Shown: positions 3,537 to 25,002 of the stretch, piece by piece
How the letters are laid out: the number at the start of each line of letters is the position of its first letter
Position numbering within the stretch: the first letter of the stretch is position 1
Source: Pseudorhodobacter aquimaris
GTDB lineage: Bacteria > Pseudomonadota > Alphaproteobacteria > Rhodobacterales > Rhodobacteraceae
Assembly (NCBI RefSeq): GCF_001202025.1
Contig: NZ_LGHS01000066.1
Coordinates: 124,001 to 188,000 of the forward strand
Reading direction: 5' to 3'
DNA length: 64,000 nt
Notes under the pieces: generated by a model
Databases searched by the model: none
Told to the model about the DNA's origin: nothing
Seen by the model: the letters and a program-made list of their open reading frames with translations, nothing else
Translations under genes and position numbers: made by a program

Positions 3537-3563
3537 GGTTCCCCGCAATTTGATTTACAACAG

Positions 3564-3597: not shown

Positions 3598-3639
3598 ATG
3601 CTGCATGTGGTGCGAACGGCCTGAAGGAGGCCCGGCGAC

Positions 3640-4884: not shown

Positions 4885-4889
4885 TTTCG

Positions 4890-7832: not shown

Positions 7833-8133
7833 TCTATCCCCGAAGACCATTTTAAGCGGCGCACAGTAAATGCAATTAGCGCCGTTATATCTGTTTACGC
7901 AACACTTTGTTTCTTTTATGGCATAAATTAGTTCGCTGCGCTCATGAAAGCTCTAAACCTCTACTTTTCAACGGGTTTTAGAAGAAGATTTCGCCTATTG
8001 CTGTCGATAAATGAAATGAGATACCACATAATAGGATGCAGGCCCCGCAGTTGGATATTTCAGGCTATCTATTTGTGTTAATGGGATTTGCCAATGCATT
8101 TGCACAAGATCAACAAGGAAATTTAATTAGACG

Positions 8134-9546
8134 ATGCCCAACGGTCTTGCTTATTTAATGCTGATGCTTTGGCCGGTTCTTGCAACTGTCCTGTTTTTGC
8201 ATTTGCCGCGTGAAAAGGCGCTGATATGGTCCATTCTGGCCGCCTATATGCTGTTGCCGCCACTGGCGAATTTCAATTTACCGGCGGTGCCGGATATGGA
8301 CAAATTTACCATCTCCAATCTATGTGCACTGGGATTAACCATTTGGGTGCTGCGTGAAAAGGTCGATTTTTTGCCGCCCAGCCTGATTGGACGGTTACTG
8401 ATCATCTTCTATATCGTCAGCCCTATTGCGACCTCGCTTACAAACCCTGACCCGATCCCGATCAAGGCGGGCGATGTGCCGGCGTTGCGGCTTTATGACT
8501 CGGCCTCTACGATCAGTTACCAGTTCATTGCACTGATCCCGTTTTTTCTGGCCCGCACCTTGTTGCGCCGACCTGAGGCGATGCGGATAATGGTTCTTGC
8601 GCTGGTGTCTGCCGGGCTGATCTATTCGGTGCCAATGCTGATAGAGGCGCGCCTGTCGCCGCAGATCAACGTTTGGGTTTACGGGTTTTTCCAGCATGAT
8701 TTTTCGCAAAGCATGCGCGGCGGTGGTTTTCGCCCGATGGTGTTTATGCCACACGGTCTGTGGGTGGCGTTTTTCGCGCTTATGGCGGCGATTTCTGCCT
8801 TGCTTGTCCTGCGCACGGGCACGGCCGAGGATCGCCCCAAACAGTTGATGGTATTCCTTTATCTGTTCTTTGTGCTAGTGATGTGCCGCAGCGCGGGTCC
8901 GCTGGTCTTTGCGCTCGGGCTTATTCCGGTGATCTTGGTCGTGGGGCGTCGGTGGCAGGTTATGTTGGCCGGTGTTCTTGGGATGATCGTTATCACCTAT
9001 CCGCTGTTGCGCGGCGCACAGTTGATACCGCTGGATGCGATTCTGGACTATGCCTATTCGATCAGCCCCGACCGTCACCAATCCCTGAATTTCCGTGTGG
9101 TGAATGAAGAACGGCTTTTGGCGCGCGCGATGGAGAAGCCCATTTTTGGCTGGGGGGGCTATGGTCGCAACCTGATCCTCGACCCTATTACCGGGCTAAT
9201 CCAGACAATCCCGGACGGCCAATGGATCATCGTGCTGGGCACCTATGGCTGGCTTGGCTATATCGCTGAGTTCGGTTTGCTGGTCATGCCGCTAGTCTTT
9301 TTGGCGCGAGAGGGGCTTTTGCAACGCTCTGCTGCGTTTTCACCCTTTGCCTGTGGAATCGCGCTTATCTATGCGGCGAATTTGGTGGATTTGCTGCCCA
9401 ATGCCACGCTTATTCCCTTTACCTGGCTGATGGCCGGGGCGCTGCTGGGCTACGCCGAGGATCTGGCAATCAAACGCCGTATCGACACGCGCGCGCGCTG
9501 GTTGGCAAGGCTGGCCAATGCCGCAGGCCCGCGTACGGTGATTTGA
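8134..9546 (+). CDS. Wzy/O-antigen-ligase-like polysaccharide polymerase
   Basis: A 470-residue integral membrane protein with about 10-12 hydrophobic helices and a larger loop near residues 320-370 containing RVVNEERLLARAMEKPIFGW and GGYGRN. That pattern is typical of Wzy polymerases and WaaL-type ligases. It would join repeat units in the periplasm. The start at 8134 follows AAGGAAA. It stands 283 bases after the divergent WecG-like gene and 280 bases before the PKS start. I see no flippase (Wzx) or outer-membrane exporter (Wza) in this window. Polymerase and ligase cannot be separated by sequence alone. Confidence 0.75.
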   Translation: MPNGLAYLMLMLWPVLATVLFLHLPREKALIWSILAAYMLLPPLANFNLPAVPDMDKFTISNLCALGLTIWVLREKVDFLPPSLIGRLLIIFYIVSPIATSLTNPDPIPIKAGDVPALRLYDSASTISYQFIALIPFFLARTLLRRPEAMRIMVLALVSAGLIYSVPMLIEARLSPQINVWVYGFFQHDFSQSMRGGGFRPMVFMPHGLWVAFFALMAAISALLVLRTGTAEDRPKQLMVFLYLFFVLVMCRSAGPLVFALGLIPVILVVGRRWQVMLAGVLGMIVITYPLLRGAQLIPLDAILDYAYSISPDRHQSLNFRVVNEERLLARAMEKPIFGWGGYGRNLILDPITGLIQTIPDGQWIIVLGTYGWLGYIAEFGLLVMPLVFLAREGLLQRSAAFSPFACGIALIYAANLVDLLPNATLIPFTWLMAGALLGYAEDLAIKRRIDTRARWLARLANAAGPRTVI

Positions 9547-9826
9547 TTGCCAAGGTCTCAGATTTGTTGATTCGCTTTGAAAAACAACCACTACGGGCAT
9601 TTACTTTGCGCGTATTCCCAATCACGGGAAAGCGGTCTGGAAAATTATCTTTGATCCGCCCGCATCGAGGGCTTGGGGCTTGTAAAGAGGTAAGAAGCCG
9701 GTATTCCTGCAGCATTTAACGCATGTTTCTTTGCGATATTTTAACGCGCTGGATCGATTGATGTTCAGGGTGCCACATGTAGTGACGCCGTAATGAGTGA
9801 CGCTTGAAAGGGCCTGGAAACTTAGC

Positions 9827-12800
9827 ATGGCGATGGCAGTAAAGAATGTAGAGCTTGGTGAAAATGATATTGCGATTATCGGAATGGCTGCACATTTTCC
9901 AGGGGCCGGGTCAGTTGCGCAATATTGGTCCAATCTTGCGGCGGGCGTCGAAAGTGTTCGTCATCTGACGCAAGAGGAATTGCTTGCCGCGGGCGAAAGT
10001 CCTGCCCGTATGCGCCACCGCAACTATGTTCCCGCCGCCGCGCCGCTCGAAGGTTTCGACCACTTCGACGCAGAGTTTTTCGGCTTTTCTCCGAAAGAGG
10101 CCGCCATACTTGACCCCCAGCATCGTCAGTTTCTGGAGGTCGCCTGGGAGGCGCTTGAACACGCAGGCCATCCCCCCGAAAACTTTCCGGGCAACATCGG
10201 CGTCTATGGCGGCTGCGGCATGGGCAGCTATTTTTACTTCAACCTGTGCAGCAACCCGGGTCTGGTGGAAGATACGGGCATGTTCCTGTTGCGGCACACA
10301 GGCAATGACAAGGATTTCCTGACCACCCGTGTCAGCCATATTTTTGATCTCAAAGGCCCGAGCATCAACATCCAGACCGCATGTTCCACATCGCTTGTGG
10401 CGGTGCATTATGCGATTGAATCCCTGTTGATCGGCGAATGCGATATGGCGCTGGCGGGGGGCGTGACCATCGTGCTGCCGCAGGGCCAAGGCTACGTCTT
10501 TAATGACGGTGAGATCCTGTCTCCCGATGGGCATTGCCATGCGTTTGATGCCGCGGCACAGGGGACGGTGTTCGGTTCCGGTGCGGGTGTGGTTGTGCTG
10601 CGCCGTGCGGTGGATGCGGTGCGTGACGGCGATCATATCTGGGCCATTATCAAGGGGTCCGCCGTCAATAACGACGGGTCTGCAAAGGCCGGATATCTGG
10701 CCCCTTCGGTTGACGGGCAGGCGCGGGTGATCGCGGATGCCCAAGCCGTTGCGGGTGTGACGGCCGATACCATCGACTATGTCGAATGCCACGGCACCGG
10801 CACCTTCCTTGGCGACCCGATCGAGGTTGCCGCCCTGACCGAGGCTTTTGGTCGAACCACGGCAGAGACCGGATTTTGCCGCATCGGCTCGGTGAAAACC
10901 AATATCGGCCATCTGGATACGGCGGCGGGCGTGGCAAGTCTGATCAAGACCGGCCTCGCGCTGCATCACGGTCAAATCCCGCCCAGCCTGAACTTTACCG
11001 CACCGAATCCGTCGATTGATTTTGATGCCTCGCCCTTCCGCGTCAACGATAGGCTGACCGATTGGGCCCGCCGCAAAGGGCCGCGCCGTGCGGGCGTCAA
11101 TGCCTTGGGCGTCGGCGGCACCAATGCGCATGTGATCTTGCAAGAGGCCCCGGACCGCGCCCCGTCAGGGGCCAGTGACTGGCCGTTCCAGCTGCTCGCG
11201 ATCTCCGCCAAGTCCAAAGCCGCGCTGGACGGGCAGGCCAAGGCTCTTGCCGCCCATTTGCGCGCACATCCTGAACAACCGCTCGCCGATGTGGCATGGA
11301 CCCTTAAACAGGGCCGCCGCGCGTTTGAGCATCGCCGTGTGATCGTCGCTGAAACCCATGACGCCGCCGCCGACCTGCTGGAAAACGCTGATCCCCGCCG
11401 GATCTGGAGCCATGCCGCGCTGGATGCGCCGGAGGTGGTCTTTATGTTCCCCGGAGGCGGTGCGCAATTTGCGGGCATGGCGCGCGATCTTTATCAGACA
11501 GAGCCTGAATTTGCCGATTGGATGGACCGCGGGCTTTCGGTTTTGCCGCCGGAACTGGATCATTTTATCCGCTCTCTCTGGCTTGCAGAGCCGGAGGATG
11601 AAGTGGCCGCGAATGAGGCGCTAAAGCGGCCATCGGTCCAGTTGCCTCTGATTATGATCACCGAATACGCTTTGGCAAAGCTCTATCAGTCCTGGGGAGT
11701 GGAGCCGACGGCCCTGGTCGGTCATTCAATGGGCGAAAACACTGCGGCCTGTCTTGCGGGTGTTCTGAGCTTTGAAGATTGCATCGGCTTGGTGCATCTG
11801 CGTGGCACCCTGTTTGATACCATCCCCAAAGGTGGTATGCTTTCCATTCCGCTGGATGAGGCAGAGATCCGGCCTATGCTGACGGCCGGGCTGGATATGG
11901 CGAGTGTGAACGCGCCGGGGCTTTGCGTTGTGTCCGGGCCTGATGCGGCCCTTGATGCGCTTGCGGCAACCCTTGCCGCGCAAGAGGTGGAGTGTCAGCG
12001 GATCGCCATTGATATCGCCGCCCATTCGCGCATGCTGGAACCGATTCTGGCGCGGTTTGGCGATTATCTGCGGTCGATACCGCTCCATGCGCCACAGATG
12101 CCGATTATCTCCAATACGACCGGGCAGGCATTGACGGCTGCACAAGCCACAAGCCCAGACTATTGGGTGGCCCATCTGCGCAATACGGTGAACTTTGCCG
12201 CCTGTATGGAAACGCTCAAAGCCCCTGACCGTGTCTTTATGGAGATGGGGCCAGGGCGCGCGATGTCGTCTTTGGCGCAAGCGAATGGGGTGTCTGCCGC
12301 GCAGGTTGTCCCTGCATTGCGCCACCCCGAACAAGTCATGCCGGATGATCAATGGCATCTCGCCACGATCGGGCGGCTTTGGGCCTGTGGGGTGAATGTC
12401 GATTGGTCGCAGATATGGGGGGATGCGGCGCGTCACCGTGTCCCTCTGCCGACCTACGCCTTTCAACGCAATCGGTATTTTATCGAACCGGGCAAAGAGG
12501 TCGCCGCCGCCCCGGATCTGCCGATGCGCCTTGAGGATATGGCTGATTGGGGCTGGCAACCCTATTGGCGTCCGCGGGCCGTTGATACCGAGTTTGACGT
12601 CGAGGCCGGGTTTGAGGGCCAGCCGCCCCAAACCTGGCTGGTGTTCATGGATGGGGACGGCTTGGCCGAAGCGGCTTTTGCCCCGCTGATCGCTGCTGGG
12701 CATAGGGTCATTCCGGTTCGTACGGGGGATGCTTTTGGCCCGGATGGCAAGGGGGGGTACCGTCTTGCGCCGGAACAGGGGGGCGAAGGCTATGCGGCAA

Positions 12801-15800
12801 TGCTGCGGGATCTGATCTCGCAGGGGCGGGTGCCAACCCGTATCGCGCATTTCTGGCTGGTCACGGCGCAAGAGGCCTTCCGTCCCGGTTCCAGCTTTTT
12901 CCACCGCAATCTGGAACAGGGGTTTTATGCACTGATGTTTCTGGGGCAGGCGCTGGCCGAGGAAAACCTTGCCGTCCCGCCACATATTACGGTCTTTACC
13001 AATGGCGCCGCGCAGGTGCGTACAGAAGGGCTTGCCTATCCTGAAAAGGCGATGATAGCCGGGCCGGTGATGGTTATTCCGCGTGAGGTGCCGGGTGTAA
13101 CCTGCTCTACCTGTGATCTGGTGTTGCCGGAAGTTCCGCGTCGGGGCAAAGCGGATTTCGCGACCCTCTTGCCCTTGGTGCAAGAGGAGCTTTTTGCCGC
13201 GCCAGCCAATACGGTTGCCGCGCTTCGCGGGGTGAAACGGTTGGAAAAATCGATCAAACCTGCGGTTTTGCCGGATGCAGGTTTGGATATGCCCTTGGGT
13301 GCGGCTGTCCTGTTTACGGGCGGCTTGGGCGGTATCAGCCTGACCTTGGCGGAAAAGCTGATCACGGATCACGGGGCCAAGATTGCCCTGATTTCCCGCC
13401 ATGCCTTGCCGGATGTTGACCAATGGCCGGTCTATCTGGCGAAACTTGGCCCGAATGACCCCACGGCTCAGCGTATTATGGCGATGCAGCGGCTTCAGGC
13501 GCTGGGCGATGTTGCGGTGTTTGCGGCGGATGTGACCAATACGCAGGAAATGCAGGCGGCGGTGGCGCGGGCGACAGAACGCTTTGGCCCCATCCATACG
13601 GTCATCCATGCGGCGGGCGTGATTGACGATGGCCCGCTTCTGGACAAATCACCTGCACGGGTTGAGGGGGTGTTTGCGCCAAAACTGCATGGTACCAAAG
13701 TGTTGGAGGATATCTTTCCCGACGGTTCCATTGCGCGGCTGGTGCTGTTTTCCTCGACCTCTACCGTCACCGGATCTTTGGGGCAGGTGGATTATGTGGC
13801 GGCCAATGAATATCTCAACGCCTATGCGCAGGCGCGCAAGGGCGGCAGGACCCAAGTGACCGCACTGAATTGGGGGATATGGGCAGATGTCGGCATGGCG
13901 GCCAAGGCGCTTGCCGGTCCGGCCCCGGCACCACAAGAGCCGATAGAGGCGCAAATGCTGGATGCGGCGGGCTTTGACGCGGCAGGCCATCGTCAGTTTA
14001 CCGCCCATCTGGGGCTTGATCGCTGGATTCTGGATGGCCACCGGACCAAGGACGGTCATGCGCTGGTCCCCGGCACCGGCTATCTGGAAATGGCGGCCGA
14101 GGCGATGGCCCATCAGGGCCAGCCAAGGTTTGAGGTGCGCGATCTTTATTTCTTCCGCCCGCTCGATGTGCCTGATATTCGCGCTACATTGGCACAAACC
14201 GATGAAGGCTATGAGTTTGAGCTGCGCTCTGCCGTGGATACCGACGGGCGCAGGGGCTGGCAGTTGAACGCGCAGGCACGGCTGTTGCCAATGGCGCAAA
14301 CCGCCGGTGTCATTGACCCCGCCGCCATTGTGGAACGCTGTGGAGATTTGCAAACCGGCCCTCTACGCTCACCACAAGAGGCGCATCTGGACTTTGGCGC
14401 ACGCTGGCAGGTGCTGGATGCGCAGGTCTACGGACGTGGTGAGGGTCTCGCATATCTCAGCCTGCCGCCCGAATATGCGGCAGAGGCAGGGCCGTGGCAT
14501 CTGCATCCGGCACTGATGGATCTGGCGACCGGCTGGGCGATGGGTCTGATTGGTGGCTACAGACCGGATAGCCTTTGGGTGCCGGTGTCTTACCGTCGGG
14601 TCAGGGTCTATGATCGCCTGCCTGCACAGATCGTGTCCTGGGTGCGTGCCGCTGCGGCAAATCACGCCGGTGATCAGACCGCGGTCTTCGATGTCACATT
14701 GGCGGACCTGTCGGGCAGGGTGATTGTAGAGGTTGAGGGCTTTACCATCCGCCGCATGGATCGGGGGCTATCCTTTACCGCGCCCGATCCACGCGACCTG
14801 ACCTTTGAGGATTCGCCCAAACGGCAACGCTCTGCGGCCGAGGAACGCTTTGCGCATAACCTGTCGCAGGGTATTCCGTCGCATTTGGGGGCCGAGGCGT
14901 TCGGGCGTGCCCTGTCTTTGCATGCCCCGCAGGTTATCGTTTCATCAATGGAACTGCCCATACTGATCGAGCAGGCCCAGCGGGTGGAGCCGAGTGTTCC
15001 CAAGGGTCAAAGTTTTGCGCGCCCTGATCTCAACAGTGACTATGTGGCCCCTCGAACCGATGTGGAACGTACCCTGACCGGCTTTTGGCAGGACCTGCTT
15101 GGCGTGGCGCAGGTCGGGGTGGAGGATGACTTTTTCGCCCTTGGGGGCCATTCGCTGATTGCGGTGCGCCTTTTTGCAATGGTGCGCAAAGCCTTCCATG
15201 TGGATTTTCCGATTTCGGTCTTGTTCGAGGCTCCGACGATTGCCGCCTGTGCCGCCATGATCGAGGAACACATCGGCCCGCAAGATAGCCCCGAACAGGT
15301 AGAGGAACCCAAGCGCCGTTTTACCCATGTGGTTGCGATGCATGAAGGGAATGGCGGGCCAAAGACGCCGTTATTCCTTGTGGCGGGGATGTTTGGCAAT
15401 GTGTTGAACCTGCGCCATCTCGCGCAGTTGATCGGTAAGGACCGTCCGTTCTATGGCCTTCAGGCGCGGGGTCTTTATGGTGATGAGCCGCCCCACAGCA
15501 CGATCCAGGAGGCGGCGGCGGATTACATCGCCGAGCTGCGTCAGGTTCAGCCGCATGGGCCGTATTTTCTGGGCGGGTTCTCGGGCGGTGGCTTGACCGC
15601 TTGGGATATGGCGCGCCAGCTTGAAGAGCAGGGGGAAAAGGTTGCGCTGCTGGTCTTGCTTGACACGCCCTTGCCGATGCGCCCCGGCCTGTCCAGCATC
15701 GACAAGGCCTATATCAAACTGGCGGAGCTGCGCAAACATGGCCCTGATTATGTGATTGATTGGGCGCGCTCGCGTTGGGAGTGGGAACGAAGCAAGAATA

Positions 15801-16153
15801 GCGCGGCCGAGACCGATGCCGAAGGAGCATTCCATAATGCCGCGATAGAGGCCGCATTCCGTGCCGCCTTGCCGCAATTTCCTTTGCTTTTGCGCAAGGG
15901 GCGTACTGTGCTGTTCCGCCCGCCGCTTGACCGGCATTGGGCGGTTAGCAACGGCCAGTGGGTCAGCCGTGCCAAAGAATATGTTTATCCCGATAACGAC
16001 CTTGCCCGCTTTGCGCCCGCGCTTGAGGTCATAGAGGTGCCCGGCGACCATGACAGCATGGTCTTGGAGCCGAACGTCCGTGTGCTGGCAAGCGCCCTGC
16101 GCAAGGTGATTGCAAATTCAGAGATGGCAGATAAATCTGCGTCGGAGCAATGA
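9827..16153 (+). CDS. One-module type I polyketide synthase KS-AT-KR-DH-ACP-TE
   Basis: A 2108-residue megasynthase. Ketosynthase: Cys186 in TACSTSL, His322 in CHGTGTFLGDP and His362 in NIGHLDTAAG. Acyltransferase: Ser634 in GHSMGE, later AAHSRMLEPIL; its extender specificity is unclear. Ketoreductase: structural half about residues 880-1150, TGGLGGI near 1164, VIDDGPLL (B-type-like) and Tyr1323 in VDYVAANEY. Dehydratase: His1405 in GHRTKDGHALVPGTGYLEM, with one residue more than the usual spacing to Gly, and HPALMDLA downstream. ACP: Ser1776 in GGHSL. Thioesterase: Ser1919 in GGFSGGG. The dehydratase follows the ketoreductase, the reverse of the common order. ATG 9827 is preferred over GTG 9797 because it starts nearer the KS. 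The next gene begins right after its stop. Expected product: a short hydroxy- or enoyl chain released by TE. Confidence 0.93.
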   Translation: MAMAVKNVELGENDIAIIGMAAHFPGAGSVAQYWSNLAAGVESVRHLTQEELLAAGESPARMRHRNYVPAAAPLEGFDHFDAEFFGFSPKEAAILDPQHRQFLEVAWEALEHAGHPPENFPGNIGVYGGCGMGSYFYFNLCSNPGLVEDTGMFLLRHTGNDKDFLTTRVSHIFDLKGPSINIQTACSTSLVAVHYAIESLLIGECDMALAGGVTIVLPQGQGYVFNDGEILSPDGHCHAFDAAAQGTVFGSGAGVVVLRRAVDAVRDGDHIWAIIKGSAVNNDGSAKAGYLAPSVDGQARVIADAQAVAGVTADTIDYVECHGTGTFLGDPIEVAALTEAFGRTTAETGFCRIGSVKTNIGHLDTAAGVASLIKTGLALHHGQIPPSLNFTAPNPSIDFDASPFRVNDRLTDWARRKGPRRAGVNALGVGGTNAHVILQEAPDRAPSGASDWPFQLLAISAKSKAALDGQAKALAAHLRAHPEQPLADVAWTLKQGRRAFEHRRVIVAETHDAAADLLENADPRRIWSHAALDAPEVVFMFPGGGAQFAGMARDLYQTEPEFADWMDRGLSVLPPELDHFIRSLWLAEPEDEVAANEALKRPSVQLPLIMITEYALAKLYQSWGVEPTALVGHSMGENTAACLAGVLSFEDCIGLVHLRGTLFDTIPKGGMLSIPLDEAEIRPMLTAGLDMASVNAPGLCVVSGPDAALDALAATLAAQEVECQRIAIDIAAHSRMLEPILARFGDYLRSIPLHAPQMPIISNTTGQALTAAQATSPDYWVAHLRNTVNFAACMETLKAPDRVFMEMGPGRAMSSLAQANGVSAAQVVPALRHPEQVMPDDQWHLATIGRLWACGVNVDWSQIWGDAARHRVPLPTYAFQRNRYFIEPGKEVAAAPDLPMRLEDMADWGWQPYWRPRAVDTEFDVEAGFEGQPPQTWLVFMDGDGLAEAAFAPLIAAGHRVIPVRTGDAFGPDGKGGYRLAPEQGGEGYAAMLRDLISQGRVPTRIAHFWLVTAQEAFRPGSSFFHRNLEQGFYALMFLGQALAEENLAVPPHITVFTNGAAQVRTEGLAYPEKAMIAGPVMVIPREVPGVTCSTCDLVLPEVPRRGKADFATLLPLVQEELFAAPANTVAALRGVKRLEKSIKPAVLPDAGLDMPLGAAVLFTGGLGGISLTLAEKLITDHGAKIALISRHALPDVDQWPVYLAKLGPNDPTAQRIMAMQRLQALGDVAVFAADVTNTQEMQAAVARATERFGPIHTVIHAAGVIDDGPLLDKSPARVEGVFAPKLHGTKVLEDIFPDGSIARLVLFSSTSTVTGSLGQVDYVAANEYLNAYAQARKGGRTQVTALNWGIWADVGMAAKALAGPAPAPQEPIEAQMLDAAGFDAAGHRQFTAHLGLDRWILDGHRTKDGHALVPGTGYLEMAAEAMAHQGQPRFEVRDLYFFRPLDVPDIRATLAQTDEGYEFELRSAVDTDGRRGWQLNAQARLLPMAQTAGVIDPAAIVERCGDLQTGPLRSPQEAHLDFGARWQVLDAQVYGRGEGLAYLSLPPEYAAEAGPWHLHPALMDLATGWAMGLIGGYRPDSLWVPVSYRRVRVYDRLPAQIVSWVRAAAANHAGDQTAVFDVTLADLSGRVIVEVEGFTIRRMDRGLSFTAPDPRDLTFEDSPKRQRSAAEERFAHNLSQGIPSHLGAEAFGRALSLHAPQVIVSSMELPILIEQAQRVEPSVPKGQSFARPDLNSDYVAPRTDVERTLTGFWQDLLGVAQVGVEDDFFALGGHSLIAVRLFAMVRKAFHVDFPISVLFEAPTIAACAAMIEEHIGPQDSPEQVEEPKRRFTHVVAMHEGNGGPKTPLFLVAGMFGNVLNLRHLAQLIGKDRPFYGLQARGLYGDEPPHSTIQEAAADYIAELRQVQPHGPYFLGGFSGGGLTAWDMARQLEEQGEKVALLVLLDTPLPMRPGLSSIDKAYIKLAELRKHGPDYVIDWARSRWEWERSKNSAAETDAEGAFHNAAIEAAFRAALPQFPLLLRKGRTVLFRPPLDRHWAVSNGQWVSRAKEYVYPDNDLARFAPALEVIEVPGDHDSMVLEPNVRVLASALRKVIANSEMADKSASEQ

Positions 16154-17116
16154 ATGAAAACTCTTTTAACGGTCATCCTGAATTGGCGCACTGCCGATAT
16201 GACACTTCGCGCGGCCGAAGTCGCCCTGCGCGAAATGAAGGGCATCCCCGGTGCCTTGACCATCGTGGATAACGACAGTGGTGACGGCTCTTACGAGAAA
16301 CTGTCTGCGGCTGTGGCCGAGCGTGGTTGGGACAGGAACGAGATTCCTGTGCGGGTGATCCAGTCAGGTCATAACGGCGGCTTCGGCGCGGGGAATAATG
16401 TGGGCATCCGTGCGGGCCTGCCCGATGGTGGCCGTCCCGATTATGTCTATATCCTCAACTCTGATGCCTTTCCGACGGAGGGGGCGATCCGGGCGCTTTA
16501 CAATCATTTGAACGAGAATCCGCAGACGGGTTTTACGGGCAGCTATGTCCATGGCGAAGATGGCACCCCCCATCGCGCGGCCTTTCGCTTTCCCTCGATC
16601 GCGGGGGAGTTTGAAGGTTCTGTCCGCTTTGGTCCGGTGTCCCGTCTTTTGCACCGCTATATCGTGGCGCAACCGATTCCCGAGAAAACAACGCGCGTCG
16701 ATTGGCTTGTCGGCGCCAGCTTGATGATGCGCCAGTCGGTGCTGGATGAGATTGGCCTGTTTGACAAAACCTTCTTCCTTTATTTCGAGGAAACGGAGCT
16801 TTGCCACCGTGCCGCCGTCGCCGGATATTCTTCTGATTTCGTACGCACAAGCACGGTCATGCATATCGGGTCGGTATCGACCGGCATGAAAACCTGGGCA
16901 CGGATTCCGCAGTACTGGCTCGACAGCCGGTTTTATTATTTTACCAAAGTACATGGGCGCGGTTATGCCGCTCTTGCCACATTATCGCTCATTTCTGGGT
17001 CTATCTTATGGCGGTTGCGGCTGTTGTTTCAGCGCAAAGAGAGGGCAGATCCACCCCATTTTCTTCGGGATCTGATAGCCCATTCGGCGCGGTCCTTCTT
17101 TGGGCGTTGCGCTTAA
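16154..17116 (+). CDS. Glycosyltransferase family 2, rhamnosyltransferase-like
   Basis: A 320-residue GT-A enzyme whose ATG directly follows the PKS stop codon, so the two are translationally coupled. Motifs: VILNWRTADMTLRA, IVDNDSGDGSYEKL, HNGGFGAGNNVGI, the DxD-like LNSDAFP, DWLVGASLMMRQSVLDEIG and YFEETELCHRAAVAGY. These are typical of dTDP-rhamnosyl transferases, though the sugar is not proven. A hydrophobic stretch near residues 275-290 may bind the membrane. Its place between the PKS and NRPS genes suggests that the acyl or aminoacyl product is glycosylated or ends up on a sugar of the neighbouring polysaccharide. Confidence 0.88.
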   Translation: MKTLLTVILNWRTADMTLRAAEVALREMKGIPGALTIVDNDSGDGSYEKLSAAVAERGWDRNEIPVRVIQSGHNGGFGAGNNVGIRAGLPDGGRPDYVYILNSDAFPTEGAIRALYNHLNENPQTGFTGSYVHGEDGTPHRAAFRFPSIAGEFEGSVRFGPVSRLLHRYIVAQPIPEKTTRVDWLVGASLMMRQSVLDEIGLFDKTFFLYFEETELCHRAAVAGYSSDFVRTSTVMHIGSVSTGMKTWARIPQYWLDSRFYYFTKVHGRGYAALATLSLISGSILWRLRLLFQRKERADPPHFLRDLIAHSARSFFGRCA

Positions 17117-17153
17117 TTATGTGTGCCCCGCATGTTGCGGGAAGGAGTTAACG

Positions 17154-20100
17154 ATGTCGGACGCCCTGATTTTTGGCAACCAATCCCTTACCATTCAATG
17201 CGCAGAAAGTGTTATTTATCAAGGTCATAGATTGGTTGCGGTGATCACGGAAAGCCCGGATGTGCGCGCTTGGGCGCAGGCGAACGGTATTCGTGTTGAG
17301 TTGCCAGAGGACGCGGATTCCCTCGATATCCATGTCGATTGGCTGCTTTCGATCGCTTATCTTCATGTAATTCCCGAATCGGTTCTGGCATTGGCGGATC
17401 AGGCGGTGAACTTTCACGACGGCCCCTTGCCGCGTTATGCAGGGCTCAACGCGCCGGTCTGGGCCATTCTGAATGGCGAGACGCAGCATGGCATCACATG
17501 GCACCGCATGGTTGCCGGTGTGGATAAGGGCGCTATTTTGGAACAGCGCCTGTTTGATATCGCCCCCGATGATACGGCGCTGACGCTGAACTCTAAATGT
17601 TTCGAGGCGGCGATTGAGAGCTTTCCTGCCGTTCTGGCCGCCCTGGCATCCAAGGCGCCGGGCACCGCCCAAGACCTGACGGCCCGCACCGAATACCGCC
17701 GCGCGGATCGCCCCGAAGCGGCTGCACGGCTGGACTTCAGCCAAACCGCCGAGCAGGTCTGTGCTTTGGTGCGCGGATTGGATCATGGTATCTATGCCAA
17801 CCCTGTGGCGCTGCCCAAGCTGGAGGTGGATGACCGGATATTGCTGGTGACAGCGGCTGAGATTATTCGGGGACAGGGCGTGCCGGGGACGGTGCTTGTC
17901 GCAGCACCCGACGGGCTTTTTGTTGCCTGTGGGCAGGGCGCAATACGGCTTATGGGGTTGATGGACCTTGCCGGATATGCGGTTTGTCCGACCTCGCTGA
18001 ATGCGACCAGCCTTGCCAGCCCCGGCGATGCGGCATCCGAAATTACCGAGGCCGTTGCCGCCGCCGCCCCGACCGAAGGGGTCATGCGCCGCGCTTTGGC
18101 TGCTATGACGGCGTTGGAGATGCCGCAGATCAAGGCCCCGACCACGGCAGATTGGCAAAGCCTGCCCTATGACGCCCCCTTATTTGCAACCGCGATCGGT
18201 GTGGCGCGCGCCTTGGGGCAGGATACGGTTGATCTTGCCGTCAAAAGCCCCAATCAGTCGCTGTATGTTTCCGGCTGGTCGCCGTTGCATGTCGATGCTA
18301 GCGGAACAATCGCACAGGCAGAGGCGGATTTGCCCCTGACCGCTGCTTTGCAGGCCCCCGGTTTCGCCGTTGACCTGCCGCGTCGTGATCCGGCGCTTGT
18401 CGCGCTACAAACGCCTTTGGTTGCGCTGTCGCTGGATGGTCCGCTGGCGGGTTCGGCGGTTACGGTTACGCCGGATGCGTTCCATTTTGACGCGGCCCGT
18501 ATCAGTGCCGAAGATGCCGCCGCACTTGCTGCGCGCTTGACCGTTCTGGCAAAGGGACTTGCCGATGCGGACCCTGTTACGCCATGTGCCGCCTTGCCGA
18601 TCATGCCCGAGGCAGAGCGTGATCTGATCCTAAACCGCTGGAATGATACGGCGGTGGATTATGACCGCAGCCTGACCATTCATCAGGCGTTTGAGGTGCA
18701 GGCCGCCAAAACGCCGGATGCGGTCGCTGTGGTGTTCGAATCCCAAAGCCTGACCTATGCAGAGCTGAATGCGCAGGCCAACCGTGCCGCGCATGTCTTG
18801 ATGGAGATGGGCGTCGGGCCGGGGGTGTTGACCGGGCTTTATATCAACCGTTCGCTTCATATGCTGGTCGGCGCGCTGGCGATCTTGAAGGCGGGCGGGG
18901 CCTATGTTCCGATGGACCCTGCCTATCCGGCGGACCGGATTGCGCTTTTCATTGAGGATAGTGCGGCACCGGTGATCGTTACCCAGACGGCATTGACGGG
19001 TGGTTTGCCGGTGGGGCCGCAGGCCCTGTGCATTGATACGGACCCGCGCATTGCCGTGGCGCCTGAAACCAATCCTGACAGCGGCGTTACCAGTGCCGAT
19101 CTGGCCTATATGATCTATACTTCCGGCTCTACCGGCAGGCCGAAGGGCGTGATGGTGGAACATGGCAATGTCGTGAACTTCTTTGTCGGGATGGACCAAC
19201 GGATCGATCACGCCGAGGGGTCCGTCTTCTTGGGGATCACATCGCTCTCTTTTGACATTTCGGTATTGGAGCTGTTCTGGACGATCGCGCGCGGCTTCAA
19301 ACTGGTGCTGACCTCGGATGAGAACCGGGCGCTTGTGTCGGCTGGGCCGGTTACGGGTGGCAAGGGGATGGATTTTTCCCTGTATTACTGGGGCAATGAC
19401 GATGGTGCAGGCCCCAAGAAATACGAGATGTTGCTGGATGGCGCGAAATTTGCCGATGCAAACGGGTTTTGCGCGGTCTGGACGCCAGAGCGGCATTTCC
19501 ACGCCTTTGGTGGCCCCTATCCTAACCCTTCAGTGACGGGGGCGGCCGTTGCGGCGGTCACCAAGAATATTGCCGTGCGTGCTGGCTCTTGCGTGGCGCC
19601 CTTGCACCATCCGGCGCGGATCGCCGAAGAATGGGGCGTTATTGACAATTTGACCAATGGGCGGGCGGGGCTTGCCTTTGCCTCGGGCTGGCACCCTGAC
19701 GATTTCGTGCTGCGCCCTGAAAATATGCCGCCCAATAACCGTGATGCGATGTTTGCCGCGATTGATCAGGTGCGGCGGTTGTGGCGCGGGGATGTGGTGG
19801 ATTTTCCGACGGCAGGGGGTTATTTTGGCGTGACGACGCAGCCGCGCCCGGTCTCCAAAGAGCTGCCCGTCTGGGTCACCACCGCCGGCAATCCCGCCAC
19901 ATGGCGAGAGGCGGGGGAAATCGGTGCCAATATCCTGACCCACCTGTTGGGCCAGACGATCGAAGAGGTCGGCGAAAAGATCAAGATCTATCACGCCGCC
20001 CTGCGCAAGGCCGGTCATAACCCCGATGACTTTAGCGTTTCACTGATGTTGCATACCTATGTTGCCGGTGACCGCGAAACGGCGCGGGATGGCGCGCGGG

Positions 20101-21668
20101 GCCCGATGAAGGATTATCTGAGCTCTGCCGCCGGTTTGATCAAGCAATACGCATGGGCCTTTCCGGCCTTCAAGAAGCCTGCGGGCATTGAAAAACCCAC
20201 GGATATCGACCTGCAATCCCTTTCGGAAGAGGAAAACGAGGCCATCCTCGATTTCGCCTTCAACCGCTATTTTGAGGATGCAGGCCTGTTCGGCACGGTT
20301 GAGGATTGCCTCGCAAGGGTTACGCGCCTCAAACAGATCGGCGTGACCGAGGTGGCCTGTCTTATCGACTACGGGATTGCGACAGAACAGGTGATGGAGG
20401 GGCTGCAACCGCTGGCCGAGGTATTGCGTCGCTCAAATGTTTCGGGGCCTGCCGTGGATGACTTTTCGATCGCGGCACAGCTTGTCCGCCATAGGGTCAC
20501 GCATTTGCAATGCACCCCGTCCATGGCGCGGATGATCGCGATGAATGAAGATAGCCGTGCGGCATTGGCGGGTGTCAAAACCCTTTTGCTCGGCGGCGAG
20601 GCGCTGTCGGTGGCCTTGGTGGCGGATCTGGGCGAGGCAACGGATGCGCGCATCGAAAACATGTATGGCCCGACAGAAACGACCATCTGGTCCACCACGG
20701 CCACGGCAGGGCAGGGTCCGGTCAACATCGGCACACCCATTGCCAACACGCAGGCCTATGTGCTGGATGACGATCTGAACCCTATTTCCGCAGGCGTGGC
20801 GGGCGAACTTTGGATCGGTGGCGAAGGGGTCACGCGCGGCTATTGGCAGCGCGACGATCAAACAGCCAGCCGTTTCCTGCCCAACCCGTTTCATGCGGGG
20901 CGTATGTACCGCACCGGCGACCTTGCGTGTTGGAATGGAAATGGCACGCTTGTTTTTCTGGGTCGTACCGATCATCAGGTCAAGTTGCGCGGCCACCGGA
21001 TTGAGCTGGGTGAGGTCGAGGCCGTGCTGGAGGCACATCCTCAGGTGTTGCAGGCCGTCGTCATGGCGCGCGAAGATACGGCCGGAGATTTGCGTCTTGT
21101 GGCCTATCTGCGCGGCACCGCACCCGAGGCAGAGTTGCGCGATGTCATCGGGCAGTCGTTGCCCGCGTATATGGTCCCGCAGCATTTCGTGACGCTGGAC
21201 AGTTTCCCGCTGACACCCAACCGCAAGGTCGACCGCAAGGCACTGCCCGCCCCGCTCAGTGCGGCACCAAAGGTCGCGGCCTATGTTGCGCCCTTAGGCG
21301 TGGCGGAGGCGCTGGCGGCCGTATGGTCGAATGTATTGGGTGTCTCGAAAGTCGGGGCCAAGGATAACTTTTTCGCTTTGGGTGGCCATTCGCTTTTGGC
21401 CGTGCAGGCCCACCGAGAGATTAGGGCCAGCTTAGGTTTGGACAAGCTATCGATTACCGATATTTTCCGCTTTCCGGTGTTGGAGAAACTGGCCGCCCAT
21501 ATTGAATCCACGATGGAGGCTTCCGTTGGCGCGACACCGGCCCCCGCGCAGGCCGTCATGCCGCCGCAGGTTCAACCTTCGGTTCACGCCGCCCCGCCCG
21601 CAGGTCCAAAGCGGACCGATGCAATGGCGCGGCGGCGTGCGATGCGATCTGCACGGCTAGGTGATTGA
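17154..21668 (+). CDS. NRPS: formyltransferase - adenylation with inserted luciferase-like monooxygenase - PCP
   Basis: A 1504-residue synthetase. Residues 1-about 290 are a formyltransferase fold with the catalytic trio Asn86 and His88 (NFHDGPLPRYAG) and Asp124 (GVDKGAIL). A linker like the tail of condensation domains follows. The adenylation domain runs from about 485, with A3 YTSGSTGRPKGV near 655 and A4 FDISVLELFW at 700. It is interrupted at about 736-1095 by an FMN-dependent luciferase-like monooxygenase of the MupA/Atu3671 type (WTPERHFHAFGG, FASGWHPDDFVL). It resumes at about 1104 with A5 MYGPTETTIW near 1171. The ten specificity positions read D-I-L-Q-L-G-M-I-W-K, one change from the known glycine code. 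PCP Ser1413 is in GGHSLL. There is no condensation domain (no HHxxxDG) and no TE. The start at 17154 follows GAAGGAG. Confidence 0.93.
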   Translation: MSDALIFGNQSLTIQCAESVIYQGHRLVAVITESPDVRAWAQANGIRVELPEDADSLDIHVDWLLSIAYLHVIPESVLALADQAVNFHDGPLPRYAGLNAPVWAILNGETQHGITWHRMVAGVDKGAILEQRLFDIAPDDTALTLNSKCFEAAIESFPAVLAALASKAPGTAQDLTARTEYRRADRPEAAARLDFSQTAEQVCALVRGLDHGIYANPVALPKLEVDDRILLVTAAEIIRGQGVPGTVLVAAPDGLFVACGQGAIRLMGLMDLAGYAVCPTSLNATSLASPGDAASEITEAVAAAAPTEGVMRRALAAMTALEMPQIKAPTTADWQSLPYDAPLFATAIGVARALGQDTVDLAVKSPNQSLYVSGWSPLHVDASGTIAQAEADLPLTAALQAPGFAVDLPRRDPALVALQTPLVALSLDGPLAGSAVTVTPDAFHFDAARISAEDAAALAARLTVLAKGLADADPVTPCAALPIMPEAERDLILNRWNDTAVDYDRSLTIHQAFEVQAAKTPDAVAVVFESQSLTYAELNAQANRAAHVLMEMGVGPGVLTGLYINRSLHMLVGALAILKAGGAYVPMDPAYPADRIALFIEDSAAPVIVTQTALTGGLPVGPQALCIDTDPRIAVAPETNPDSGVTSADLAYMIYTSGSTGRPKGVMVEHGNVVNFFVGMDQRIDHAEGSVFLGITSLSFDISVLELFWTIARGFKLVLTSDENRALVSAGPVTGGKGMDFSLYYWGNDDGAGPKKYEMLLDGAKFADANGFCAVWTPERHFHAFGGPYPNPSVTGAAVAAVTKNIAVRAGSCVAPLHHPARIAEEWGVIDNLTNGRAGLAFASGWHPDDFVLRPENMPPNNRDAMFAAIDQVRRLWRGDVVDFPTAGGYFGVTTQPRPVSKELPVWVTTAGNPATWREAGEIGANILTHLLGQTIEEVGEKIKIYHAALRKAGHNPDDFSVSLMLHTYVAGDRETARDGARGPMKDYLSSAAGLIKQYAWAFPAFKKPAGIEKPTDIDLQSLSEEENEAILDFAFNRYFEDAGLFGTVEDCLARVTRLKQIGVTEVACLIDYGIATEQVMEGLQPLAEVLRRSNVSGPAVDDFSIAAQLVRHRVTHLQCTPSMARMIAMNEDSRAALAGVKTLLLGGEALSVALVADLGEATDARIENMYGPTETTIWSTTATAGQGPVNIGTPIANTQAYVLDDDLNPISAGVAGELWIGGEGVTRGYWQRDDQTASRFLPNPFHAGRMYRTGDLACWNGNGTLVFLGRTDHQVKLRGHRIELGEVEAVLEAHPQVLQAVVMAREDTAGDLRLVAYLRGTAPEAELRDVIGQSLPAYMVPQHFVTLDSFPLTPNRKVDRKALPAPLSAAPKVAAYVAPLGVAEALAAVWSNVLGVSKVGAKDNFFALGGHSLLAVQAHREIRASLGLDKLSITDIFRFPVLEKLAAHIESTMEASVGATPAPAQAVMPPQVQPSVHAAPPAGPKRTDAMARRRAMRSARLGD

Positions 21669-22280
21669 CCTTAGAAAACTTTTATCTGCGGCGCGCGCGA
21701 TTGCGCCGCAGGGGATCGCCATCGCGGCAAACGATCCAACCGCCCCCGCCCCTGCGCTGTGGCCGGGTGAGGTTTTAACGCGTGCGGCCCCCGCACGGGC
21801 GATGGAATTCGCGGCGGGGCGTGCCGCTGCGCGTGTGGCAATGGCGGGATTTGGCCTTGCCAGTGCCATTCCAATGGGGGTCGCCCGTGCGCCGGTTTGG
21901 CCCAAGGGCGTCAGCGGCTCTATCTCCCACAGCACGATCCTGATTGGTATCGATCTGGAAGAGGCGACCCCATTGGAATACGACCTGTGGGATCTTGTTT
22001 TAACATCGTCAGAACGCGCGGAGTTAGGTGGCGGGCTGGACGCCAAACTGGTATTTCCGCCAAAGAGGCCGCCTATAAGGCGCAATACGCAAGATCCGGA
22101 ACCCTGTTGGGCTTTGACGCGCTGTTGCAGCGATGGTTTTGTCAAAGCAAGGGCCATTTTCTGACCCTCGTCACGGGGTCATCCGGCATTGGGTCAGGCC
22201 CAGACAACATCGCCCAAAAAGATATAGCCCGCGCCATAGATTGTCTTGATCAACAACGGGTTCTTAGGATCTTCGCCTAG
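21661..22280 (+). pseudogene. 4'-phosphopantetheinyl transferase, broken by a one-base frameshift
   Basis: The enzyme would attach phosphopantetheine to the ACP and PCP of the two synthases upstream. The first frame (GTG 21661, overlapping the NRPS stop) carries VSGSISHS and IGIDLEEATPLEYDLWDLVLTSSE, then drifts into nonsense after DAKLVF. The neighbouring frame continues the family with SAKEAAYKAQYARSGTLLGF and GHFLTLVT up to a stop at 22280. The shift falls at the T-run 22054-22056, where one extra T would restore VFSAKEAAYK. The restored protein would have about 206 residues, and its tail would overlap the opposing response regulator gene by 87 bases. Either a true mutation or a homopolymer sequencing error. 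Confidence 0.85.
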
Positions 22281-22904
22281 TTTGGTGCGCAGCCGTGAAA
22301 TCCGCACATCCATCGCACGGTCAAAGCTGTCACCTGCCGCGCCGCCAAGGCTTTCTTGCATTTGTGCGCGGGAAATCAAACGTTTGGGGGACTCTAGAAA
22401 CAGGCGCAACACCTCACCCTCGGCATGGGAAAAGGCAACTTCGGTTCCGTCCTTGTTGACCAGAAGATAGCGGTCGAACAGGGCGGTCCACCCCTCAAAG
22501 CGCGCCTCTTGGGCAACACGTTCAGTATTGCTGCGGCCTTTGCGCAAATGGGCGCGCACGCGGGCGACCACCTCGGCGGGATCAAAGGGTTTGATGATGT
22601 AATCATCGGCCCCAAGTTCCAACCCTGTCACGCGATCCTGCACCTGTGCGCGCCCTGAAATGATGATGATAACCGCCCCCGACTCCAGCGCCAGACGGTG
22701 GACAAGCGCCAGCCCGTCACGGTCGGGCAGCCCCAGATCGACCAGGCATACATCCGGGGTCACGCGGTTCAGCGCGGCTTCGAATTCGGTTGCACGGGCA
22801 TAGGCGAGGGTGCGTAGGCCGGCCTCTTCCAGCGCGTCCTGCAGCATGCGGCGAATTTCGGGTTCATCATCCAGAATGGCGACAAGGGGGGCTGTTGCGG
22901 TCAT
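22194..22904 (-). CDS. OmpR-family response regulator
   Basis: A 236-residue two-domain regulator. The receiver has the acidic pair in AILDDEPEIRR, the phosphoacceptor Asp56 in LVDLGLPD and Lys in YIIKPFDP. A winged-helix DNA-binding domain follows (SRAQMQESLGG, MDVRISRLRTKLGEDP, IKTIYGAGYIF). The start at 22904 overlaps the kinase stop (ATGA), which rules out the longer frame to 23030. Paired with the hybrid kinase upstream, it probably controls the divergent acyl-CoA ligase/ABC importer operon or itself. Confidence 0.92.
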   Translation of the reverse strand: MTATAPLVAILDDEPEIRRMLQDALEEAGLRTLAYARATEFEAALNRVTPDVCLVDLGLPDRDGLALVHRLALESGAVIIIISGRAQVQDRVTGLELGADDYIIKPFDPAEVVARVRAHLRKGRSNTERVAQEARFEGWTALFDRYLLVNKDGTEVAFSHAEGEVLRLFLESPKRLISRAQMQESLGGAAGDSFDRAMDVRISRLRTKLGEDPKNPLLIKTIYGAGYIFLGDVVWA

Positions 22905-24826
22905 GGTGCCTCGGGGATCAAAAGGGCGGCAAGTTGGGCCGCGTCGAAAGGTTTGGACAGCACAGGAAACTGTGCAGCGGCGCGGGCACGAAGCGGGTTT
23001 GGGGGCGGCAGAGAGGTCATCAAAAAGCATCGCCCCTTCATGCCGTTCTGCGCAAGGGTTTCCACAAGATCCACCCCTGTCAGCTTACCGGGAAGGGAAA
23101 TATCGCTTAGCACCATGGTCAGGCCCGGCAGGCTGGCAAGGGCAAGCCCCTCATCGGCGGTGCTTGCCTCAATCACGGAATGGCCCATGGCGCGCAGCAT
23201 CTCTCGCACGTCTTCGCGGATTTCGATCCGGTCTTCGACCAGCAGCACCATTCCGGGTTCGATGGCCTTGTGAACGGGGCGCAATGGCAGGCGCAGTGTG
23301 ACTATACCGCCGCCTGTGGGGCGGTTGCGCAGCCGCACGGTGCCGCCCGCCAAGGTGATCTGATCATAGATCATCGCCAATCCAAGGCCGGACCCTTCGC
23401 CGCCTTTGGTGGTGAAAAACGGGTCCAGCCCACGTTCCAGCGCGATATCGGAAAATCCGGGGCCGTCATCCTCAACCACCAGTTCCAGCCAGGTTTCGCG
23501 CAGCGCGCGGGCGGTCAGGGTGATCTTGCCCGCCTTGCTGCCCATCGCATCGCGGGCATTGAGCACCAGATTTACCAGCGCATCCTGCAACATGCCCGCA
23601 TCCAGCAGCAAGGGGGCCTCCAGCCCTTCGCGGGCCATCCAAAGGGTGATCTGTTCGGGCAGGATCGGATCCGCAAGGACTGACAGATCGGTCAGAAACT
23701 GGCGCATATCGGTGACAACGGGCCGCAGCTCCCGCTTGCCGGAAATCCCCGCGATCCTGTCCAGCAAAGTGCCCCCGCGGCGGGCGGCGGCGATGGTGGC
23801 TGCCACAATCTCGGCGGCATTGCCCGGCAATGAAACCCGTTCCAGACGTCCTTGCAGCCCCAGAATGATGGTCAGCAGATTGGCGAAGTCATGGGCAAGG
23901 CCGCTGGTCAGCTGTGCGGCCAGTTCGCGTTTGCGGGTCTGCATCAGGGCAGAGCGTGCCTGCACCTCTTCGGTCACGTTCATCGCCAGAATATAGACGC
24001 CGTTTATCGGGCCGCCATTGGTTTGATCAGGGGTAAAGGCCGCGCGGATACGCCGCCCGTTCGCATCATCGGCAAATTCGAAAACCGAAGCTTCGCCATT
24101 CAACGCGCGCAACAGATAGGGCTCAATCTTGTCAAAGGTGGTGTCGCCCAAGGCCTCGCGGCCCGTCAGGCCCATAATGCTTTGCGGGCGTCCGACACCG
24201 GGCATGACGGACGACAGGCGCCGGTTGGTATAGGTATAGCGCAATTCGCGATCGACATGGGCGATATGGGCGGGCATCATCTCGGTGGTCAGGCGGGTGC
24301 GGGCCTCCATTTCCATCAGCTGGCGTTTGGTTTCCTCTAGCGCGATATTGGCCGAGGCAAGCTGCCGGTTGGCTTGCGACAGACGCTCGGCGTTGGCCAG
24401 AACCTGCCCGGATAATTCCTCCGATCTTGCGCGCAGCAAGCCTTCCTGGACCTTGATCTCGGTGATGTCGGTATAGACCGTGATCCAGCCGCCTGTGGTC
24501 AAAGGTGCGCCCTCGACCGAAACCCAGCGGCCATTGGGGCGCATCCGTTCCAGATAGTGCGGCTCAAAGGCGCGGGCGGCCTCGACCCTTGCTGCAATAG
24601 CCTCTTCGACGTCTTCGACTTCGCCGTATTCACCGCGCCCGACCAGAAAGCGGATCGTATCCTCAAACAGCGCACCCCGGGTGGACAGGGAATCCGGCAG
24701 GTTGAACATCTCGCAAAAGCGACGGTTGCAGACCGCAAGCCGCAAGTCGCTGTCATAGATCGAAAGCGCCTGCTGGATCAGATTCAATCCGGCGGCAGTC
24801 ATTGCGGTGGTGATATCCTGTCCCAT
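22901..24826 (-). CDS. Hybrid sensor histidine kinase with PAS domains and receiver
   Basis: A 641-residue kinase without clear membrane helices, so probably cytoplasmic. The order is PAS (from about residue 10), PAS (about 180-290, after a coiled-coil of ANIALEETKRQLMEMEA type), phosphoacceptor His312 in SGLAHDFANLLT, and an ATPase domain with NLVLNARDAM, VEDDGPGF and GEGSGLGLAMI. A C-terminal receiver follows (VLLVEDRIEIREDV, Asp575 in LSDISLPG, Lys in VLSKPFD). The start at 24826 has AGGAGG at ideal spacing. It is divergent from the CoA ligase at 25003, 176 bases away, and overlaps the response regulator. The ligand is unknown; a metabolite linked to the divergent transporter is an inference. 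Confidence 0.92.
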   Translation of the reverse strand: MGQDITTAMTAAGLNLIQQALSIYDSDLRLAVCNRRFCEMFNLPDSLSTRGALFEDTIRFLVGRGEYGEVEDVEEAIAARVEAARAFEPHYLERMRPNGRWVSVEGAPLTTGGWITVYTDITEIKVQEGLLRARSEELSGQVLANAERLSQANRQLASANIALEETKRQLMEMEARTRLTTEMMPAHIAHVDRELRYTYTNRRLSSVMPGVGRPQSIMGLTGREALGDTTFDKIEPYLLRALNGEASVFEFADDANGRRIRAAFTPDQTNGGPINGVYILAMNVTEEVQARSALMQTRKRELAAQLTSGLAHDFANLLTIILGLQGRLERVSLPGNAAEIVAATIAAARRGGTLLDRIAGISGKRELRPVVTDMRQFLTDLSVLADPILPEQITLWMAREGLEAPLLLDAGMLQDALVNLVLNARDAMGSKAGKITLTARALRETWLELVVEDDGPGFSDIALERGLDPFFTTKGGEGSGLGLAMIYDQITLAGGTVRLRNRPTGGGIVTLRLPLRPVHKAIEPGMVLLVEDRIEIREDVREMLRAMGHSVIEASTADEGLALASLPGLTMVLSDISLPGKLTGVDLVETLAQNGMKGRCFLMTSLPPPNPLRARAAAQFPVLSKPFDAAQLAALLIPEAP

Positions 24827-25002
24827 TGCGCAGATCCTCCTTTCACTGGTTAGCACCGCAGGTCGGTTCCGCGAAAGCGCAAATCACGTCTGTAACAATT
24901 CGCAAGGTTTGCGAAAAAGTCACGCAAGTATTGCAGGCGACCTATAGGATTAACAAGCGAGGGATGGTGAACGAATCATTTCTGCACCAAGGGGGGACTT
25001 GA

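Follow-up and report, generated by a model that had tools for sequence, protein, structure and literature searches.

A PKS-NRPS pair in an exopolysaccharide locus of Pseudorhodobacter aquimaris and its predicted acyl decoration

The polyketide synthase (PKS) and the nonribosomal peptide synthetase (NRPS) described here lie together in an exopolysaccharide locus of Pseudorhodobacter aquimaris (genome G000, contig 66, positions 124001-188000; this whole stretch of 64,000 nucleotides is called the window). On balance we lean towards the view that the pair is integral to a Wzy-type exopolysaccharide pathway, in which it is predicted to make a C4 acyl decoration for the polymer from N-formylglycine. 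Direct support comes from the domains, their conserved active sites, the association with polymer genes and the domain order of the NRPS, which is formyltransferase (FT), partial condensation domain (C), adenylation domain (A) with an inserted luciferase-like monooxygenase (LLM) and thiolation domain (T). In the window, exopolysaccharide genes on both strands (4-9546) are followed by the PKS, a GT2 glycosyltransferase (GT), the NRPS and a phosphopantetheinyl transferase (PPTase) (9827-22280). These four stand in series on the forward strand beside the polymer genes, at the positions given in a preliminary description of this DNA, and the GT2 gene starts (16154) directly after the end of the PKS (16153).

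The synthases and their predicted product

Domains of the window proteins were assigned with Pfam and NCBIfam. The PKS carries ketosynthase (KS), acyltransferase (AT), ketoreductase (KR), dehydratase (DH), acyl carrier (ACP) and thioesterase (TE) domains.

9827-16153, forward: type I PKS, KS-AT-KR-DH-ACP-TE (ATG start; reading frame open from GTG 9797)
9863-11152, forward: KS domain (Pfam coordinates)
11438-12319, forward: AT domain with GHSMGE and IAAHS (Pfam, motif check)
13304-13888, forward: KR domain (Pfam, motif check)
13982-14764, forward: DH double hot-dog domain, located after the KR (PF21089 and PF14765)
15071-15262, forward: ACP domain (Pfam, motif check)
15368-16066, forward: TE domain (3' limit placed by us just past the conserved His)
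16154-17116, forward: GT2 glycosyltransferase between PKS and NRPS (PF00535)
17154-21668, forward: NRPS, FT-partial C-A(LLM)-T (ATG start; frame open from TTG 17100, a start there would overlap the GT gene)
17154-18020, forward: FT domain, ArnA/Fmt fold with N-H-D (Formyl_trans_N/C; predicted structure)
18027-18629, forward: partial C domain, roughly half as long as usual, with approximate limits (AlphaFold, 222 residues modelled, pLDDT 93.5)
18690-19328, forward: A domain, N-terminal part to motif a4, FDISVLEL (AMP-binding)
19374-20423, forward: LLM inserted between a4 and a5 (TIGR04020)
20460-21227, forward: A domain, C-terminal part, NMYGPTE onward (Pfam; AMP-binding_C)
21309-21503, forward: T domain (PP-binding)
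21661-22280, forward: Sfp-type PPTase, reading frame broken in the window (4PPT_N; GTG start 21661 overlaps the NRPS end)

The NRPS was aligned with its relatives (n = 130 with the window copy included, score >1700, length at least 1350; 125 distinct at 99%). The AlphaFold model containing the FT domain (498 residues, pLDDT 94.6) matches ArnA (Z 26.2) and Fmt (Z 25.9) over 277-279 residues at 2.4-2.8 Å, and the N, H and D residues are each present in 129 of the 130 sequences, with one gap. The NRPS gave no Pfam Condensation match, although a full condensation domain would be expected to give one. The linker between FT and A was considered as a new domain, an idea that was rejected. The 498-residue model barely tested this linker; folded alone, it resembles condensation domains, giving 44 Foldseek matches in the PDB at E ≤ 0.001. 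Each chain listed is either a condensation-type domain or a piece of an NRPS with such a domain in it (TMq 0.43-0.64, rmsd 4.9-9.2). The protein may thus derive from a C-A(oxygenase)-T module in which part of the C domain was exchanged for a formyltransferase.

The inserted monooxygenase (residues 759-1108) scores 474.6 bits against TIGR04020, the MupA/Atu3671 family (cut-off 244.45), and the solved structure nearest to it by sequence is PuwE (6ket). It lies between FDISVLEL (D719) and NMYGPTE (M1188), which we take to be motifs a4 (FDxS) and a5 (NxYGPTE). In the 130 NRPS sequences the specificity code of the A domain reads D, I, L, Q, L/I/V (one F), G, M, I (126) or V (4), W and K (two gaps). 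With the code positions and the reading for glycine that we assume here, the A domain is predicted to be glycine specific. A conserved basic tail, DAMARRRAMRA, closes the consensus of 25 aligned NRPS sequences (21600-21665 in the window); it is possibly a docking tail for the PKS.

Among the 115 long PKS relatives aligned (score >1900, length at least 1900, duplicates retained), all have the KS Cys and both KS His, the AT Ser and Arg, the KR Tyr, the DH His and Asp (H1415 and D1575 in the window) and the ACP Ser. The TE Ser, Asp and His are present in 114 of the 115, with one gap. KR and DH residues were read by the standard motif rules. The AT presumably takes malonyl units. Malonyl-type ATs usually carry a residue larger than Ser at one site, according to the accessible part of one report (PMC3908369).

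In the route we propose, glycine would be activated and loaded on the NRPS T domain, the glycyl group would be N-formylated by the fused formyltransferase and its alpha carbon would be hydroxylated by the inserted monooxygenase. The PKS would accept the N-formyl-(hydroxy)glycyl starter and add one malonyl unit; reduction and dehydration of the extended unit would then give a C4 acyl group such as 4-formamido-(4-hydroxy)crotonyl. The PKS thioesterase would pass this group to a repeat-unit sugar or a lipid-linked intermediate as a non-sugar decoration. The order of these steps, the malonyl extender, the exact outcome of the oxidation and the attachment to a sugar are what we infer. The preliminary description had named a formylglycine unit extended by two carbons as one simple product, and this fits the conservation of the FT residues, the glycine code and the presence of just one extension module; the chemistry of the alpha-hydroxylation was not drawn out there.

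The available part of PMC10204066 describes MtaG and MelG, whose A domains hold, between a4 and a5, a flavin monooxygenase that hydroxylates the glycyl alpha carbon; cleavage of the carbinolamide then yields an amide and a glyoxyl thioester. In solanimycin B, by the same account, the hydroxyglycine is retained. The oxygenase of the window NRPS is inserted at the same position as in MtaG and MelG, so two outcomes would be expected. Either N-formyl-hydroxyglycine would be kept and extended to 4-formamido-4-hydroxycrotonyl, or the formamide would be lost and a 4-oxocrotonyl group would result. Our more tentative proposal, which may well be wrong, is that the exopolysaccharide of about one-third of Rhodobacteraceae genera bears a covalent peptide-polyketide group built from N-formylglycine, malonate and one oxidation, in which an MtaG-like collapse would leave an enoyl-conjugated aldehyde. 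Such an aldehyde, if formed, would be a ready cross-linker for a sticky matrix.

One natural variant bears on the chemistry. In genome G085 the monooxygenase is missing from the A domain and from the 32 kb fetched, the DH is absent and there is no Tyr at the KR position. The FT, A, T, KS, AT, ACP and TE motifs are retained beside ExoY, Wzy, Wzx and GT genes. This joint loss, seen in one genome, suggests that both steps, oxidation and reduction, work towards a single product.

Distribution and linkage to polymer genes

An NRPS of this kind is present in 109 of the 295 Rhodobacteraceae genomes sampled for the NRPS and Wzy counts (by the match table, in which some relatives' NRPS matches contain in-frame stops). 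In a class-wide sample the FT domain was matched in 10 of 385 genomes at E ≤ 1e-30, five of the 10 from the same family. Named loci were the best 80 of 357 confirmed matches, and 68 of these 80 are at least 18 kb long. Carriers among the 80 include Cypionkella, Shimia, Sulfitobacter, Roseovarius, Paracoccus, Devosia, Aureimonas, Agrobacterium sp., Rhizobium sp., Bosea, Hyphomicrobium and Methylorubrum, together with a deltaproteobacterial and a gemmatimonad metagenome-assembled genome. On plasmids the NRPS is carried by Ruegeria, Parasedimentitalea, Aminobacter, Shinella and Paracoccus (12 of the 335 matching records cover at least 80%). Ruegeria conchae and Shimia abyssi are examples of culturable carriers whose locus is full length.

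The same gene order was sought in relatives, as the preliminary description had proposed. For 50 of the 109 NRPS-positive genomes, 40 kb each were analysed (some 19 kb ahead of the NRPS and 16 kb past it), and six polymer-assembly markers were counted (Wzx, Wzy, Wzz, kinase, ExoY and WecG). At least two of the six stand near the NRPS in 48 of the 50 genomes. Models matched the PKS in 50, the NRPS in 50, the operon GT in 48, Wzz in 47, the kinase in 45, WecG in 45, the PPTase in 43, Wzx in 37, Wzy in 34 and ExoY in 26. Counted per genome, no marker was found in 2, two in 1, three in 5, four in 13, five in 9 and all six in 20. The names of the marker families agree with Pfam on one or two members per family, Wzy being below the cut-off.

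At least two of the markers likewise stand beside the pair on contigs of Devosia, Rhizobium and Aureimonas and on the Shinella and Aminobacter plasmids. Of the 68 long named loci, one or more markers are present in 63 and two or more in 59. Three of the five marker-free loci (L158, L190 and L210) hold sugar-transfer or sugar-nucleotide genes and a fourth (L146) holds the operon GT and an SGNH-like gene; the fifth (L216) has neither by these models. Five of the NRPS loci in the alignment of 130 are second copies of the same genome, and the locus counts are not independent because of shared descent.

The polymerase gives a second line of evidence. Wzy of the window type is matched in 112 of the 295 genomes, and 101 of these 112 have the NRPS; where the Wzy match is strong, the NRPS is present in 97 of 97. 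Eight NRPS genomes, some of them fragmentary, are without the window-type Wzy. Correlations of pairwise distances are 0.77 for NRPS and PKS, 0.32-0.60 for the NRPS with the glycosyltransferase and polymer genes and 0.23 for the PPTase, values too loose to weigh.

Chance adjacency in one genome is rejected by the synteny counts (50 genomes and 68 named loci). That the synthases belong to the exopolysaccharide locus is well supported. In nearly all of the related loci that we examined, PKS-NRPS and polymer genes stand together, and this points to a group that is part of the polymer. The interpretation put forward in the preliminary description, that the product is glycosylated or placed on the polysaccharide, stands firmly in its coupling to the exopolysaccharide locus, with synteny across genera and orders and co-occurrence with Wzy; its further step, attachment to the polymer, we hold as an inference.

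The glycosyltransferase was treated separately. Its place inside the synthase operon had been used to argue that it acts on the synthase product, and this argument is weak. The GT lies between PKS and NRPS in most Rhodobacteraceae loci and is matched in 57 of the 68 named loci. In G285, G191, L173 and L211, however, the PKS adjoins the NRPS with no GT between them, and the GT stands beside WecG; on the Shinella and Aminobacter plasmids the PKS is divergent from the NRPS, again with no GT in between. A role as a tailoring enzyme of the synthases was therefore rejected as the default reading, and the operon GT is read as a polymer enzyme because it stands apart from the synthases in several loci.

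Alternatives and related systems

Several observations weigh against assigning the pair to the polymer. We are aware of no product, mutant or polymer structure, nor could any gene be singled out as a dedicated acyltransferase. The marker hidden Markov models (HMMs) were trained on the same 51 regions that were used for counting. In a control within 20 kb, at least two markers were found at 3 of 20 other NRPS loci and at 30 of 50 loci of the present kind, a comparison less clean than the 40-kb count. Two genomes, G217 and G144, have the PKS-NRPS pair with none of the six markers nearby; the G144 NRPS is just 44% identical, and among 10 reading frames scanned in G217 (L136/L137) CbtA, DUF1636 and DUF4238 were found, the other seven being without a Pfam match. 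In G097 (L261/L262) the monooxygenase, the KS Cys, the AT Ser, the N-F-H of the FT domain and the T-domain Ser are gone and the PKS is split, with frames mostly open; Wzx, Wzy, Wzz, kinase, WecG and GT genes are kept. This looks like decay of the synthases, and as the polymer genes outlast the synthase active sites, the group would be dispensable there. Copies such as those of G085 and G097, shortened or decayed, are excluded from the alignments by the length and score filters. Finally, the PKS precedes the NRPS in the window and in most Rhodobacteraceae loci, contrary to colinearity. The natural order would be NRPS then PKS, because the FT is on the NRPS and the TE on the PKS. In L214, L216, L210 and L259 (in the last record the FT part was unmatched by tblastn) the NRPS does precede the PKS on the same strand, in keeping with an NRPS that starts the chain and a PKS that ends it with its TE.

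PKS-NRPS pairs usually give free products, and the pair might make a secreted small molecule (a signal, a metallophore or a defence compound) whose genes are merely co-regulated with those of a matrix polymer. The G217 pair, near CbtA and DUF1636 genes with no polymer marker, would fit this, as would a cyanobacterial plasmid (L260) that has an LLM beside PKS genes near siderophore uptake genes. The association with polymer genes, however, spans genera, two orders and one deltaproteobacterial locus, the product of a single module would be very small, and we recognised no exporter, transporter or receptor that could serve a free product among the annotated neighbours of the pair in the window. 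We regard a free molecule as unlikely, and a free metabolite, which the preliminary description had kept as its alternative, as less likely than a polymer decoration. A siderophore of the fabrubactin or anachelin type was considered on account of the LLM family name; the cyanobacterial arrangement is again in its favour and the lack of a receptor beside the window's pair is against it.

It is rather less probable still that the product is a primer, an anchor or a lipid-like polymer acceptor, glycosylated by the operon GT, a role that capsule PKSs of the RkpA/WcbR kind might also have. Type I PKS genes in capsule loci are known from the accessible part of PMC3908369, and the operon GT is among the most constant partners of the pair (48 of the 50 genomes; 57 of the 68 named loci from the best 80 of 357). 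The module is predicted, however, to yield a polar C4 unit and not a lipid, ExoY offers an ordinary route of initiation (present in 26 of 50) and the GT is separate from the pair in G285, G191, L173 and L211.

A PPTase following the NRPS with overlapping ends had been described and is present, but its frame is not intact, the N-terminal part being in the frame of 21661 and the part with the KEA motif in another. In 108 of the 110 regions with a PPTase match, a single frame covers more than 80% of the model; the exceptions are the window and G121, where the match is in one frame and spans model positions 45-223 of 226. The break in the window is either a sequencing error or recent. Were it real, the synthases might be left unloaded and the locus a relic in this strain, which we consider very improbable. 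The window PKS and NRPS are full length with the checked residues in place, a sequencing error could account for the split frame, and the P. aquimaris genome has two further matches to the PPTase/ACPS family, one of them on contig 52 near other NRPS genes.

Returning to the polymer decoration, the nearest relatives of the pair are each alike in part. The terminal modules MtaG and MelG (myxothiazol and melithiazol) likewise have a glycine A domain into which an oxygenase is inserted between a4 and a5, as far as the accessible description goes (PMC10204066). By that description they differ from the NRPS here, which has an FT and a partial C in place of a full C, has its TE on the partner PKS and stands in a polysaccharide locus. 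In the initiation module of LgrA (linear gramicidin synthetase, FT-A-T) a formyltransferase is likewise fused to an NRPS starter, and LgrA is among the sequence matches of the FT. ArnA and Fmt outrank LgrA for this FT, however, and here a monooxygenase sits in the A domain and a partial C between FT and A. By its score the inserted LLM belongs to the TIGR04020 family, and among solved structures its sequence is closest to the PuwE monooxygenase domain (6ket), from which it differs in lying inside a glycine A domain. The capsule PKSs RkpA and WcbR are also type I PKS genes among polysaccharide genes, in alpha- and betaproteobacteria, according to the available text of PMC3908369; no NRPS partner is described for them in that text, and the likeness noted here is one of gene setting. 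Neighbours in the distant locus L216 resemble hydrolases 1 and 2 associated with exosortase A (XrtA), below the cut-offs, whereas no such gene was recognised among the annotations of the window locus.

No prior description of a PKS-NRPS/exopolysaccharide locus was found in the literature covered, which was mainly open access, so an earlier account is possible. Such a locus is not described in the accessible parts of PMC8383342, PMC3908369, PMC10204066, PMC4219810, PMC4849084, PMC5940937 and PMC4359443. If the decoration is real, the polymer of a widespread bacterial group carries an unrecognised chemical group, possibly one that governs adhesion or cross-linking. PKS-NRPS chemistry would then extend to the modification of polysaccharides, the assembly line being a dedicated polymer-modifying enzyme. 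By its enzymes the pair resembles a secondary-metabolite synthase, and searches for a free compound would in that case fail.

Surroundings of the pair

The polymer genes of the window are as follows.

4-501, forward: GT2-type glycosyltransferase gene, 3' part (family c12, 5' end upstream of the window; family HMM, Pfam on a family member)
498-1778, reverse: GT4 glycosyltransferase (PF13692/PF00534)
2826-3536, forward: ExoY-type polyprenyl-phosphate sugar transferase, the initiating enzyme (PF02397 Bac_transf, 196 bits)
3640-4965, reverse: Wzz chain-length determinant (PF02706)
4890-5828, reverse: ParA/BY-kinase type protein paired with Wzz (PF10609/CbiA)
6084-7085, forward: GT2 glycosyltransferase (PF00535)
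7086-7850, reverse: WecG/TagA/CpsF family glycosyltransferase (PF03808, 148 bits)
8134-9546, forward: Wzy/O-antigen-ligase type polymerase, Wzy_C (PF04932, 22.3 bits, under the Pfam cut-off of 31.7)

The initiating transferase, Wzz, its kinase-type partner and Wzy (below the cut-off) are all present, as in a Wzy-type locus; the tyrosine-kinase role of the ParA/BY-kinase type protein is suggested by its pairing with Wzz. A Wzx flippase was absent, by its own family model, from the window and the 20 kb upstream, other flippase families not being searched. The sole PF13440 match in the P. aquimaris genome is on another contig, and the Wzx family found in the relatives was checked with Pfam on two members. 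After 9827-22280 the reverse strand encodes a two-component pair (22194-24856), and this is followed by an AMP-binding enzyme and by genes for the transport of branched-chain amino acids.

Upstream of the window lie genes for two SGNH-like proteins (L257, 16155-19683; contig 66, 120155-123683) and, farther up, genes of the SDR, alanine-dehydrogenase and RsmB/F types. The SGNH-like proteins have no Pfam match and show conserved G-H-S-L and D-x-x-H (family c20 alignment, 72 sequences). They are candidate acyl esterases or transferases, and one or both of their genes (families c20 and c8) occur in 36 of the 50 genomes.

Among the three control loci with at least two markers, L240 owes both to a single fused Wzz-kinase gene. 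There, a different PKS-NRPS (812-13408; A domains, T, KS-AT, aminotransferase and C, then C-T-TE) stands beside the Wzz/kinase gene and a GT4 gene. The NRPS loci L249 and L253 have the same markers, the NRPS domains being known for L240 only, and L240, with these two, is perhaps a second polymer-linked assembly line.

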